From contig JARLGV010000082.1 of the NCBI GenBank assembly GCA_031292555.1, positions 1 through 57,676 of the forward strand: 57,676 nt of DNA. The letters are read 5' to 3'. The notes beneath the pieces were generated by a model. The model had not been told where the DNA came from. It worked only from the letters and a program-made list of their open reading frames with translations, and ran no database searches. The DNA comes from Fimbriimonas sp. Its GTDB lineage: Bacteria > Armatimonadota > Fimbriimonadia > Fimbriimonadales > Fimbriimonadaceae. A program made the translations under genes and the position numbers. This document shows positions 3,728 to 14,782 of this stretch, piece after piece (position 1 is the first letter of the stretch; every line of letters begins with the position of its first letter).

Positions 3728-5128
3728 CTATAGTCTCGGAGGCCCGTCCAAAACCAAGGTCGCTGGATAGCTAATCGCGTGACCAATTCGGGTCGCGCCA
3801 TCAGATCGGGCGGTTGCCGAGCCGGCGAGGACCCCTTGGTAGTCGCTTAGGTCAAGCAAGAGCGAATGGGGCGCCCGATTCGCGTCGGGCACCTCTAGAT
3901 TCGTGGCGACCGTCCCTCGGATGTCACCGTCTTCGAATGATGCATCGGACTCGACAGGCACTCCGTTTACTTCAACTTGGATCCGGCGGTTCTCGATTTC
4001 AAGCGCGATGGGAATTGGACCCGAATAGGTATGGATCGCCCCGGACCACTTTCCTAGAGCGGACTCGGGGGTGTCTCGAGAGATCTCACTCGCCGGACTT
4101 TGACTCGTCGGAATACCTAATGCTTCGTGCAGTCTCGCGACTGTTTCGGAAACGATCGGCGAGTCGGAGTTGCAGAGCACGACGATGACGGTCTCCATGG
4201 ATGGAGCGATCAAAAGTCGCGTCGACACCCCATCCATCCCGCCCGAGTGTCCGAAGATCGGGATAGCATCGTTGGGCTTCCCAAGAAACCACCCGAATCC
4301 GTAACCGAGGTCCGCTTCGCCCACTCCCAGCGGCGCCTGCATACTTGCCCTTGTGGATGGAGTCAAGATTGTCGCCTCGGAGAGTCCGAGATGGAACGCT
4401 CCGAAACTGAGGAGGTCCCGCACGCTACAATAGGCTTCCGAAGCGGCGGGGTGGTCGGTGACATAGTGGGGAAGGCGCACCTTCTTCTTGTCGTACCGCA
4501 CCGCGTAGAACGGCGTGTCGACAAATGACGGCGCGAAGAACGCATCCTTCATCCCTAACGGCTCGAACAGGTCGGTTCGAAACACTTCGGTCAACGGACG
4601 CTCTGCCACAGTCTCCGCCGCGAATCCTAGAATGCCGTAGCCGATATTCGAGTACACGTACCTCGTCCCCGGCGGCCGGCAGATATTTCCATAGCGCCCA
4701 ATGGTCTCGATATCCGACGGTGGCCGTCCCAATTCGTCGGCAAAGAAGAACTGGAAGTAAATGGGCAGCCCGGCAGTATGATTGGCAACACGTTTGAACG
4801 TCGCCGCGCCGCGGTCGCCAATCCAGGCAGTAAGGCGTGCCCCACCAAGATAGTCGTTGACCGGCGCATCCAGATCGACCTTCCCCCGCTCCGAGAATCC
4901 CGCCAAGATCGTGGCGATCATCGGCTTCGTAATCGATGCGATGGAGTACGGCGTTCGAGTCGTCGCCGGAACTCCCGCCTCCACATCGGCTAGACCAAAC
5001 GCCGCTTCGTAGACGATGTCTCGTCCGACCTGAACCCCAATTGCCACTGAAGGCACGCCGAGTTCCATCATTCTCGCCGAAACGAACTGCGACACTCCTT
5101 CGAAGTTGTATTTCCCGCAACCTGACAT
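3728..5128 (-). CDS. Serine hydrolase, class C beta-lactamase/esterase family
   Basis: A 466-residue beta-lactamase-fold hydrolase. S-I-T-K at 65-68 is the SxxK nucleophile motif, Y-S-N at 159-161 is the second motif, and H-S-G-G at 294-297 replaces the KTG box, as is common in EstB-like esterases and D-aminopeptidase-type members. The domain ends near 340; the last 120 residues form a lipocalin-like tail often seen in this group. No signal peptide is visible, so the enzyme is probably cytoplasmic. It starts 38 bases after the SDR gene but has a TAGACT box in the gap, so it may be transcribed separately. Its substrate (ester, amide or peptide) cannot be told from sequence. Confidence 0.85.
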   Translation of the reverse strand: MSGCGKYNFEGVSQFVSARMMELGVPSVAIGVQVGRDIVYEAAFGLADVEAGVPATTRTPYSIASITKPMIATILAGFSERGKVDLDAPVNDYLGGARLTAWIGDRGAATFKRVANHTAGLPIYFQFFFADELGRPPSDIETIGRYGNICRPPGTRYVYSNIGYGILGFAAETVAERPLTEVFRTDLFEPLGMKDAFFAPSFVDTPFYAVRYDKKKVRLPHYVTDHPAASEAYCSVRDLLSFGAFHLGLSEATILTPSTRASMQAPLGVGEADLGYGFGWFLGKPNDAIPIFGHSGGMDGVSTRLLIAPSMETVIVVLCNSDSPIVSETVARLHEALGIPTSQSPASEISRDTPESALGKWSGAIHTYSGPIPIALEIENRRIQVEVNGVPVESDASFEDGDIRGTVATNLEVPDANRAPHSLLLDLSDYQGVLAGSATARSDGATRIGHAISYPATLVLDGPPRL

Positions 5129-5139
5129 GAATACGGGTC

Positions 5140-5145
5140 AGTCTA
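5140..5145 (-). promoter_or_regulatory. Possible -10 box (TAGACT) for the 5128 gene
   Basis: On the minus strand TAGACT lies 11 bases before the ATG at 5128, predicting a leader of only a few bases. No Shine-Dalgarno sequence is present. Confidence 0.35.
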
Positions 5146-5166
5146 ACACGATGGAACTTTGGCGGG

Positions 5167-5952
5167 TCATGATCGCTTGGGAAGGGCGCGCGTGGCGCCG
5201 GTCGACATACCCCCGTCGATGAGCAAGGTCTGCCCGGTGATGTAGGCGCTGGCTTCGGAGGCAAGGAACACGACGGCGCCGCGAAGGTCGCTGGGGCGAC
5301 CAGGTCGCTTCAAAGGGATCCGGTCGCTCAGATACTCGACCCATTCCTCGTTCTCGTACATCACCGCGTTTTGTGCCGTTTTGAACCAGCCCGGGGCCAA
5401 ACAGTTCACCGTGATGCCGTGACGCCCCCAGTCGTCGGCGAGGCTCATCGTGAGTTGTTTGACTCCACCTCGACTTGCACCGTAGGGTCCGAGCCCGGCC
5501 GAGCCGGACACGCTCGTGAGAGAGCCGATGTTCACGATCCGGCCGTAACCGGCCGGGATCATTCGTCGAGCGACCGCTTGCGAAACGAAGAAAGTGCCTC
5601 GTAGGTTGGTGTCGAGCACCAGATTCCAGTCATCCCAAGTCACGTCGAGGGCGGGCTTTCGAACGTTGCAGCCGGCGTTGTTCACGAGAATGTCGATCTT
5701 TGCGCTTGCCCGATGAGCGGCATCCACCATTCGTTCGATCGAATCGTGGTCCCGCACGTCGCACTCGAGCGCGGCGCACGAGCGTCCCATCTGCTGGATC
5801 TTTGATTGGAACGCGGCGAGATCCTCCTCCCGGCGGCTTGTGACCACCAGATCCGCCCCCGCTTCGGCCAGGGCCTCCGCGAATATCTGACCCAGTCCGC
5901 GGCTGCATCCGGTAACCAGCGCCGTCCGCCCAGTAAGGTCGAATTCCTTCAC
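5167..5952 (-). CDS. SDR-family oxidoreductase, gluconate 5-dehydrogenase-like, with YxxxR in place of YxxxK
   Basis: A 261-residue classical short-chain dehydrogenase. T-G-C-S-R-G-L-G at 14-21 is the nucleotide-binding glycine motif, N-N-A-G is at 91-94, the catalytic Ser is at 144 and Tyr at 157. The catalytic Lys expected four residues later is Arg161 (codon CGA), which is unusual. Closest in style to gluconate 5-dehydrogenase and 3-oxoacyl-reductase-like SDRs, so a role in sugar or sugar-acid oxidoreduction is likely. It overlaps the upstream alcohol dehydrogenase gene by ATGA (5949-5952), indicating translational coupling and a shared operon. Whether it is active with Arg in the catalytic tetrad is open. 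Confidence 0.88.
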   Translation of the reverse strand: MKEFDLTGRTALVTGCSRGLGQIFAEALAEAGADLVVTSRREEDLAAFQSKIQQMGRSCAALECDVRDHDSIERMVDAAHRASAKIDILVNNAGCNVRKPALDVTWDDWNLVLDTNLRGTFFVSQAVARRMIPAGYGRIVNIGSLTSVSGSAGLGPYGASRGGVKQLTMSLADDWGRHGITVNCLAPGWFKTAQNAVMYENEEWVEYLSDRIPLKRPGRPSDLRGAVVFLASEASAYITGQTLLIDGGMSTGATRALPKRS

Positions 5953-6956
5953 GGCCGAACGATTACCTTCATGAGACCCGGTTCCTGCTTATAGAGCCGA
6001 TCGAAGTACTCCGCCGTCTCGTCGAGCGAGATCTTGGCTGAGATCATCCCGTCGACATTGACGGCGCCGCTTGCGATCAGATCAAGGCACTCCGGGTAGT
6101 CGCCCTCCGAGCCATAGGTTCCGTTAACCGTAATCTGGCGTGTTACGACCTCTTGAAGCGGGAAATCCACGTGGGACGACAAGTTGCCGATGAGGACCAC
6201 GGTGCCCGCCTTCTTGACGCTTCGGATGGCCATGTCGACCGTCGGAGTGATCCCCACCGCTTCGATCGCGCAGTCCAGTTCCATTCCGATCGTCGATTGG
6301 GTGACCATGTCCGCGCCGTGAGCCGCCGCCATCGCGAGTTTTGCTTGGTTGATATCGACGGCGATAACCTCTCCCGCCCCCCTCGCCTTGAGTACCTGGA
6401 CAACGAGCAGTCCGATCATGCCGACTCCGACGACTGCCACTCGGTCTCCGGGCTTGATACACGCTCGATCGACCGCATGGACGGCGACTGAAACTGGTTC
6501 AGCCATGGCCGCTTGTTCATAAGTGAGGCCGTCAGGCAACTTGAAGAGCGAGCGAGCATGTACCGGCAGATATTCAGCGAACGCCCCCTCCTTCCTGAAC
6601 TCGGTGCACGAAACGCCAAACACCTGCCGGTTGTCGCAGAGGTTGGTCTGCCCTCGCTTGCAGTAATCGCACTTGTTGCAGAAGATCACGGACTCGAACG
6701 TCACGCGGTCGCCGACGTTCCAAGCCGAAACACCGCTGCCAAGCTTAACGATCTCGCCGGCGGCCTCATGTCCCATTACGATCGGCGGCAACCTTCGTCC
6801 GGTGCTGCCGTCGAGGCCGTGGACGTCGCTTCCACATATCCCGCAAGCTTTGACGCGGATGAGCACTTCATCCTCTGCTATCTCGGGAACGGGCATCTCG
6901 ACCCGCTCAAATCGTCCGTACTCGACAAGCTGCAGCGCCTTCATGACTCCAATCAT
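5949..6956 (-). CDS. Zinc-dependent medium-chain alcohol/polyol dehydrogenase
   Basis: A 335-residue MDR enzyme of the sorbitol/threonine/galactitol-phosphate dehydrogenase type. The first catalytic-zinc Cys is in C-G-I-C-G-S-D, a G-H-E-A-A-G-E segment follows, and the structural zinc lobe C-x2-C-x2-C-x7-C lies near 90-105. The Rossmann motif is V-G-V-G-M-I-G. Such enzymes oxidise polyols or sugar hydroxyls with NAD(P). It is the first gene of a two-gene operon with the SDR, a pairing that suits stepwise oxidation of one sugar. The ATG at 6956 is used here; a second ATG four codons on (M-K-A-L-Q) is preceded by GGAG and may be the true start. Confidence 0.9.
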   Translation of the reverse strand: MIGVMKALQLVEYGRFERVEMPVPEIAEDEVLIRVKACGICGSDVHGLDGSTGRRLPPIVMGHEAAGEIVKLGSGVSAWNVGDRVTFESVIFCNKCDYCKRGQTNLCDNRQVFGVSCTEFRKEGAFAEYLPVHARSLFKLPDGLTYEQAAMAEPVSVAVHAVDRACIKPGDRVAVVGVGMIGLLVVQVLKARGAGEVIAVDINQAKLAMAAAHGADMVTQSTIGMELDCAIEAVGITPTVDMAIRSVKKAGTVVLIGNLSSHVDFPLQEVVTRQITVNGTYGSEGDYPECLDLIASGAVNVDGMISAKISLDETAEYFDRLYKQEPGLMKVIVRP

Positions 6957-13697: not shown

Positions 13698-13722
13698 AAA
13701 AAAAGCCCTCCCAATAGGGAGG
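13698..13722 (-). terminator. Rho-independent terminator of the ncRNA candidate
   Basis: On the minus strand CCTCCC-TATT-GGGAGG (13722-13707) is followed by GC and seven T residues. It begins 5 bases after the closing stem of the RNA candidate at 13728-13906 and has no protein gene upstream on that strand, so it most likely ends that RNA. Confidence 0.75.
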
Positions 13723-13727
13723 TTTCA

Positions 13728-13906
13728 GGCGATGTGTCCTTCTAGAACAACAACCACTCTCTCGTCCGACCACGGCTGTTATTTGGACCGCACCCAACGA
13801 ATCCCTCGCGAGGGGATACGCAAAAAATCAGTCCAAAGGACGCTTATTCGGTTTCGCGCACGGCTTACGGAATCTCTCAGGGAAGATCTCCCTCCTGCAC
13901 ATCGCC
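13728..13906 (-). ncRNA. Structured small RNA, 6S-like (candidate ssrS)
   Basis: No protein gene fits here. Read on the minus strand, the 5' end GGCGATGTG (13906-13898) is perfectly complementary to the 3' end CACATCGCC (13736-13728), so 179 nt fold into one long rod. Inside, TTTGGAC pairs with GTCCAAA (13837-13831 with 13788-13782), capped by ATCCC/GGGAT around CTCGCGA. The 5' strand of the large central bubble contains TTCCCTGAG, like the CCCTGAG of 6S RNA, and the 3' strand contains GGTCGGACGAGAG. Length, rod shape, central bubble and the immediate terminator all fit 6S RNA, which binds the housekeeping RNA polymerase holoenzyme. A TACCTT box at 13920-13915 would be its -10. A covariance-model check is not possible here, so the class is tentative; an independent RNA is more secure. 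Confidence 0.5.
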
Positions 13907-13942
13907 TTGTCACTAAGGTATCCGACGCTCCGTTTGACGGCC

Positions 13943-13990
13943 AGTCGTCGGTTTTATGTCATCCATTGTCATGACATAAAACCGACGACT
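13943..13990. repeat. Perfect 20-bp inverted repeat with 8-bp spacer
   Basis: The arm at 13943-13962 is exactly complementary to 13971-13990. The core is TGTCAT-N8-ATGACA, and the same core and spacing recur at 20238-20257. It lies about 50 bp upstream of the RNA candidate and 228 bp upstream of the nitroreductase start. It could be an operator for a dimeric regulator, or a hairpin if transcribed; it lacks a T-run. Confidence 0.7.
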
Positions 13991-14038
13991 TGGCACGTTA
14001 TTGCCCTTCAAGGCAATATGACTGTGCGGCGACGCGCA

Positions 14039-14098
14039 GCGGGATAAATCCGAGATGTACGCCCTTAAGACACATTGAGGGCATCTTTGGAATCCCGT
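14039..14098. other. Long imperfect hairpin in the leader of the nitroreductase gene
   Basis: GCGGGAT (14039-14045) pairs with ATCCCGT (14092-14098), GAT (14054-14056) with ATC (14083-14085), and GCCCTTAA (14061-14068) with TTGAGGGC (14075-14082). A smaller ATTGCC/GGCAAT hairpin lies at about 14000-14017. No known riboswitch class is recognised. The rest of the 13545-14218 gap holds the RNA candidate, its terminator and the inverted repeat. Confidence 0.35.
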
Positions 14099-14218
14099 TG
14101 GAATGGAGGTGCTTCTCAAGGCTTCCGGTCCGGTTCGGGACAGCCGGCCAGGGTTAGCGAGAACGTGTCGCCGCCTTCGCATTTTCTCCCTGTAGCTATA
14201 CAGGTATGAGAGGCTACC

Positions 14219-14782
14219 ATGACGACTCAGGAAGCTATTTACTCCCGGCGAGCAGTACGGGATTTCAAGGACGAACTCATCCCGGAGTCGATTCTGCACG
14301 ATCTCATCGATGCGGCCATTCAGGCGCCCAGCGCAATCAACGCCCAGCCGTGGGCGTTCGTGGTCGTTCAAGATAAAGCGATCCTCGACCACATCTCTCG
14401 TCGGACCAGAGATCTGATGGAGGCCCAGCCGATGTCGGAGGAACTTCGAGCCAAGGTGTTCAAACCGGGCTGGAGCATCTTCTACAACGCAACCACCCTC
14501 ATCGTCGTCTGCGCTCGTCCAGAAGGGTCACACCCAGAGTGGGACTGCTGCCTTGCGGCCGAGAATCTGCTCTTGGCGGCTCGCGACATGGCGATCGGCG
14601 GCTGCATCATCGGATTTGCATGGGCTGCGTTGGCATTACCCGATGTCAAGGAGCTCCTCGGGATTCCCGAGTCGTATGACGCGGTTATGCCCATCATCCT
14701 TGGTTACCCGCGGGAGTTCCCCGCCCCAACCGGCCGACGGTCCCCGGAAATCCTTAGTTGGAAGGTTGCTGCAAGGGCCTAG
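14219..14782 (+). CDS. Nitroreductase-family flavoprotein
   Basis: A 187-residue FMN-dependent oxidoreductase. S-R-R-A-V-R-D-F at 9-16 is the FMN phosphate-binding motif; A-P-S-A-I-N-A-Q-P-W at 36-45 and the later E-N-L-L-L-A-A and G-I-P segments are typical. Such enzymes reduce quinones, nitroaromatics or flavins with NAD(P)H as dimers. GAGAGG six bases before the ATG is a fair ribosome site. It is a single gene with a long structured upstream region and converges on the PII gene with 12 bases between stops. The true substrate is unknown. Confidence 0.9.
   Translation: MTTQEAIYSRRAVRDFKDELIPESILHDLIDAAIQAPSAINAQPWAFVVVQDKAILDHISRRTRDLMEAQPMSEELRAKVFKPGWSIFYNATTLIVVCARPEGSHPEWDCCLAAENLLLAARDMAIGGCIIGFAWAALALPDVKELLGIPESYDAVMPIILGYPREFPAPTGRRSPEILSWKVAARA

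Follow-up and report, generated by a model that had tools for sequence, protein, structure and literature searches.

Architecture of the RNA locus

The window, by which we mean the whole analysed stretch of 57,676 nucleotides, harbors a structured RNA body of ~180 nt on the minus strand (13728–13908; 5' AAGGCGATG ... CATCGCC 3'), located between genes for an ammonium transporter and a P-II protein on one side and a ThuA-like gene (13544–12795) on the other. The body is supported by covariance-model (CM) homologues in two other genomes, G019 and G251, and by covariation. Its core, minus-strand 13906–13728, measures 179 nt, and the ends GGCGATGTG (13906–13898) and CACATCGCC (13736–13728) pair throughout, in line with the perfect complementarity reported in the first-pass annotation. 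An intrinsic terminator follows at 13700–13722 on the minus strand, with a stem at 13722–13707 and a run of seven U; its placement 5 nt past the closing helix is as originally described. It was also correct that no protein gene lies behind this terminator, as neither strand has an ORF that would explain it. The terminator is strong in the window's species only, with terminator-like hairpins past the RNA also present in G251 and, weakly, in G019.

Indels among the RNA homologues amount to 1, 1, 2 and 6 nt, which, together with the lack of an explanatory ORF on either strand, indicates that the locus is not coding. Coding on the plus strand (an 80-aa ORF, with a similar LIRFRA stretch in G251) was dropped, as the indel lengths are not divisible by three. 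Across the three species, 16 G-U cells as opposed to 2 A-C cells favor the minus strand as the RNA. On this strand, a −10-like hexamer, TACCTT, is found at 13915–13920. In each of the three species the pattern TANNNT (TACCTT, TACTCT and TATCAT) stands exactly as far upstream of AAGGCG, a coincidence reached in 0 of 20,000 shuffles, and this shared spacing leads to a predicted start near 13908. No good −35 box is evident.

Homologues and covariation of the fold

When the genus and other relatives were searched at the DNA level, a homologue emerged in one congener, G019, and no further copy. The G019 copy is syntenic: the order ammonium transporter, P-II, RNA, ThuA-like gene is retained, and the strand of the RNA relative to these genes is unchanged. 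When ThuA was used to trace synteny, G019 alone proved to have an ortholog. The interval from Amt/P-II to ThuA differs between the two genomes (14219–14782 in the window versus 4974–6408 of locus L026 in G019); the window has a nitroreductase before the RNA, and G019 an extra convergent 316-aa ORF past it, without a Pfam match. A CM built from the window and G019 sequences retrieved a third copy (E 5.7e-12) in G251, which belongs to another genus of the same family. This copy is non-syntenic and resides in an unrelated genomic place, whose wider context reads as cytochrome c biogenesis-like.

Searched with the three-sequence CM, 85 family genomes and 291 phylum genomes gave strong matches in 3 genomes only, a 3/291 count behind which diverged copies may have escaped the search. 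A more permissive run across the genus yielded no additional copies. A pattern scan of named genomes gave 19 matches, and the relatives recovered among them were G019 and G251 only. These are two bins, one of an uncultured Armatimonadetes from Umea (CAIUHP01), the other from Lac Pavin (JAIOPU01). The other matches of the exact motif CGAAACCGAN{1,2}TAAG in the 85 family genomes lack flanking structure and were attributed to chance. Viral contigs as well as phage and plasmid records were searched and contained no copy of the RNA.

The fold energy of the 179 nt alone corresponds to a z of −1.47, shifting to −2.49 with the terminator included. Fold energy by itself is weak and unremarkable, and the proof of a structured RNA is comparative. 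Compensatory changes, which the first-pass annotation had suggested seeking in relatives, are indeed found. With the family counting three members, so that every comparative test is based on three sequences, 18 of the 50 pairs in the RNAalifold structure display two-sided changes; shuffles give 8.1, with 18 reached in 0 of 500, and sliding the partners gives 1–5. Paired cells make up 90.7%, compared with 36–45% for slid partners; this percentage exceeds its controls by construction, as the structures were derived from the same sequences, and the two-sided changes carry more weight. An independent RNAalifold run on the three sequences gives 50 pairs with 16 covarying, and a structure drawn by hand before that run leads to the same outcome. 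Hence, the shape is kept across the three species, while most of the letters are not, and the locus almost certainly encodes a real structured RNA.

The closing helix P1 is formed by 13899–13906 (5' strand) and 13728–13735 (3' strand) of the minus strand. It is 100% paired in the three species, with one U-A to C-G pair and two wobble changes. Directly stacked on it is P1b (5' strand 13836–13841, 3' strand 13736–13741), in which every cell is paired and two pairs change on both sides. Between the 5' strands of these helices lie two hairpins. The 5' side hairpin P0 (13858–13898; from RNAalifold) has three two-sided pairs and contains CCCTGAG. The mini-hairpin PL (13842–13857), with the loop GAAACCGAAUAA (13855–13844), is the most conserved segment of the RNA: CGAAACCGA and TAAG are invariant across the three species and the loop is nearly so, while the stem shows a G-C to A-U change. 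Two arms complete the fold, P2/P3 (13785–13834), with the loop UCGCGA in two species and six two-sided pairs over P2 and P3, and hairpin P4 (13748–13781), with five two-sided pairs and a conserved CGG in its loop. This CGG could pair with the CCG of the PL loop, which never varies across the three species. The interior had been pictured earlier as a rod with a large bubble containing CCCTGAG; instead, the fold is multi-branched, also when the single sequence is folded, and CCCTGAG sits inside the 5' side hairpin.

Known RNA families and alternative readings

Several known families can be set aside. ARAGORN reports no tmRNA in the window and Rfam no match to one, which excludes it, and cmscan likewise excludes SRP, the other family named in the first-pass annotation, together with all other Rfam families. 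Low-scoring Rfam matches at gathering and relaxed thresholds, mostly miRNA models on a palindrome upstream of the RNA, were discarded as chance. The original description of the RNA as 6S-like was not supported either, considering the missing Rfam 6S match, a score below 5 bits with a phylum-specific model and a different helix topology. The Rfam 6S covariance model RF00013 has no match in the window or its own genome, nor locally at E ≤ 10, although the same search picks up known controls and detects 6S in 98 of the 201 phylum genomes searched. Among the matches listed, none comes from the window's family, and the sole one at the level of the order lies in G038 (G038:C3:103638-103811). Two matches each were recorded in G061 and G075, which may be paralogous 6S RNAs.

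The phylum-specific 6S model was built from 19 Armatimonadota 6S sequences. It assigns 108 bits to the real 6S of G038, itself in the training set, and, with filters off, less than 5 bits to each of the three RNA homologues. Applied to 41 family genomes, it gave no significant match among those first-look candidates that were scored, which were part of the total. Canonical 6S in the window's family would seem to be either lost or diverged beyond recognition.

The best surviving alternative, in our view still an unlikely one, is that the RNA represents a strongly diverged 6S or a 6S replacement, which would bind the housekeeping RNA polymerase and use the 5' side loop AACCGAAUAA as a template for product RNA. 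Canonical 6S is built from an outer stem that closes the molecule, a large central bulge on the 5' side faced by a hairpin, and a stem at the apex (PMC8414754). The RNA resembles it in its length of ~180 nt, its paired ends, its own terminator, a hairpin on the 3' side and an unpaired CCGA on the 5' side, as Armatimonadota 6S carries CCGA in its 5' bulge. The absence of canonical 6S from the family, within the scope of the two models described above, would also fit. However, neither 6S model recognizes the RNA, and its consensus fold lacks the long rod with a central bulge: the 14-bp closing helix is divided into segments of 8 and 6 bp, the 57-nt 5' segment that would correspond to the bulge holds two hairpins, and two arms branch off beyond. 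CCCTGAG is common to the RNA and 6S, but its position is not comparable. Moreover, the RNA is present in 3 of 291 genomes, whereas 6S would be expected in most. The related idea of a new RNA-polymerase-binding or global regulatory RNA, replacing 6S in an Armatimonadota branch without detectable canonical 6S, appears quite improbable.

Alternatively, the RNA might act in cis, as a leader (a riboswitch-like attenuator) of the ThuA-like gene, with the adjacent terminator serving as expression platform. Within the window this arrangement is suggestive, as the RNA lies directly upstream of that gene on the same strand, with ~150 nt and the terminator separating it from the start codon. Pairing is also conceivable between AGGAGGG, a 5' segment of the RNA, and CCUCCC in one arm of the terminator. 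Terminator-controlled leaders and riboswitches similarly have an intrinsic terminator downstream of a structured domain. In contrast to such systems, the gene downstream of the RNA is not conserved, being convergent in both other genomes. The 316-aa ORF and ~1 kb separate the RNA from ThuA in G019, and in G251 there is no adjacent ThuA, the downstream gene encoding a PEP-CTERM protein. The candidate antiterminator pairing is not conserved either. We consider the leader reading largely refuted and a role in cis very unlikely. Since the neighbours differ between species and no cis gene is conserved, the RNA is better regarded as free-standing.

Upstream of the RNA lies another conserved and strongly structured element (14026–14174), with complementary ends (GCGGCGAC.../...GTCGCCGC). 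It matches 5011–5157 of L026 in G019, where it has kept its place and is conserved as well as the RNA or better. The z of its fold is −3.97 in the window, on the plus strand, and −3.62 in G019, in the orientation of the window's minus strand. RNAalifold on the two sequences leans a little towards the plus strand, with 45 pairs and 6 covarying as against 38 and 3 on the minus strand. The element matches no Rfam family, and ~2 Mb of the congener G013 yielded no further copy. Conceivably it represents another uncatalogued RNA, perhaps transcribed divergently from the first. Between this element and the promoter region of the RNA, a perfect 20-bp inverted repeat, AGTCGTCGGTTTTATGTCAT, with an 8-nt spacer occupies 13943–13990. 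The repeat is degenerate in G019 and was not seen in G251; it is a possible operator.

The conservation, structure, complementary ends and retained place of the upstream element raise the question of whether it forms, with the intervening palindrome and the RNA, one longer RNA or locus. Such a continuous unit is highly improbable for several reasons. Conservation falls to 50–57% between the two elements, and in each of the three species a −10-like box stands immediately before the RNA. A blastn search of the DNA retrieved around the RNA of G251 brought up no counterpart of the element, and the element may sit on the opposite strand. Lastly, a retron or mobile RNA was rejected, as neither a reverse transcriptase nor a transposase was identified in the examined flanks.

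Proposed nature of the RNA

The RNA is new, lineage-restricted, free-standing and previously uncatalogued. The first-pass annotation had mentioned a novel RNA class as its second option, and it is this option that the comparison supports well, in the form of a structured RNA that stands alone and carries its own terminator. A predicted free-standing RNA gene with defined fold, start and terminator end is backed by the covariation, the asymmetry between the strands, the shared promoter spacing and the terminator. We propose, with a probability of roughly 0.7 and on the strength of sequence comparison, that this minus-strand gene produces a multi-branched structured RNA of ~180–210 nt that would function as a trans-acting regulator. 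A close parallel is found in the unclassified lineage-specific structured sRNAs of bacteria, which likewise have stand-alone genes, with a predicted promoter and a terminator, and display loops held on conserved helices; the difference is that the present RNA matches no Rfam family.

According to this proposal, transcription from the minus strand would start near 13908 and end at the intrinsic terminator. In the folded transcript, a domain on the 5' side and two arms would accompany a closing helix in which P1 is stacked on P1b. The helices would hold out two conserved single-stranded loops, PL with GAAACCGAAUAA and the CGG-bearing loop of P4, and these may touch each other. Regulation probably takes place in trans, with a target RNA or a protein likely to be contacted through the invariant PL loop. 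The evidence for any particular mechanism is weak, and even the best-placed one is tentative. This is base pairing with target RNAs, a conceivable mode of action that seems a little more probable than an interaction with a protein, be it RNA polymerase or another.

Our search of the literature for a dedicated study of non-coding RNAs in Armatimonadota found none. With the RNA described here, this phylum gains a structured RNA family backed by covariation. The RNA also raises the question of what, if anything, replaces 6S in the window's family, where both Rfam and a phylum-specific model detect none. Should the element at 14026–14174 prove to be a second structured RNA alongside the first, this intergenic region would constitute an RNA-rich locus.
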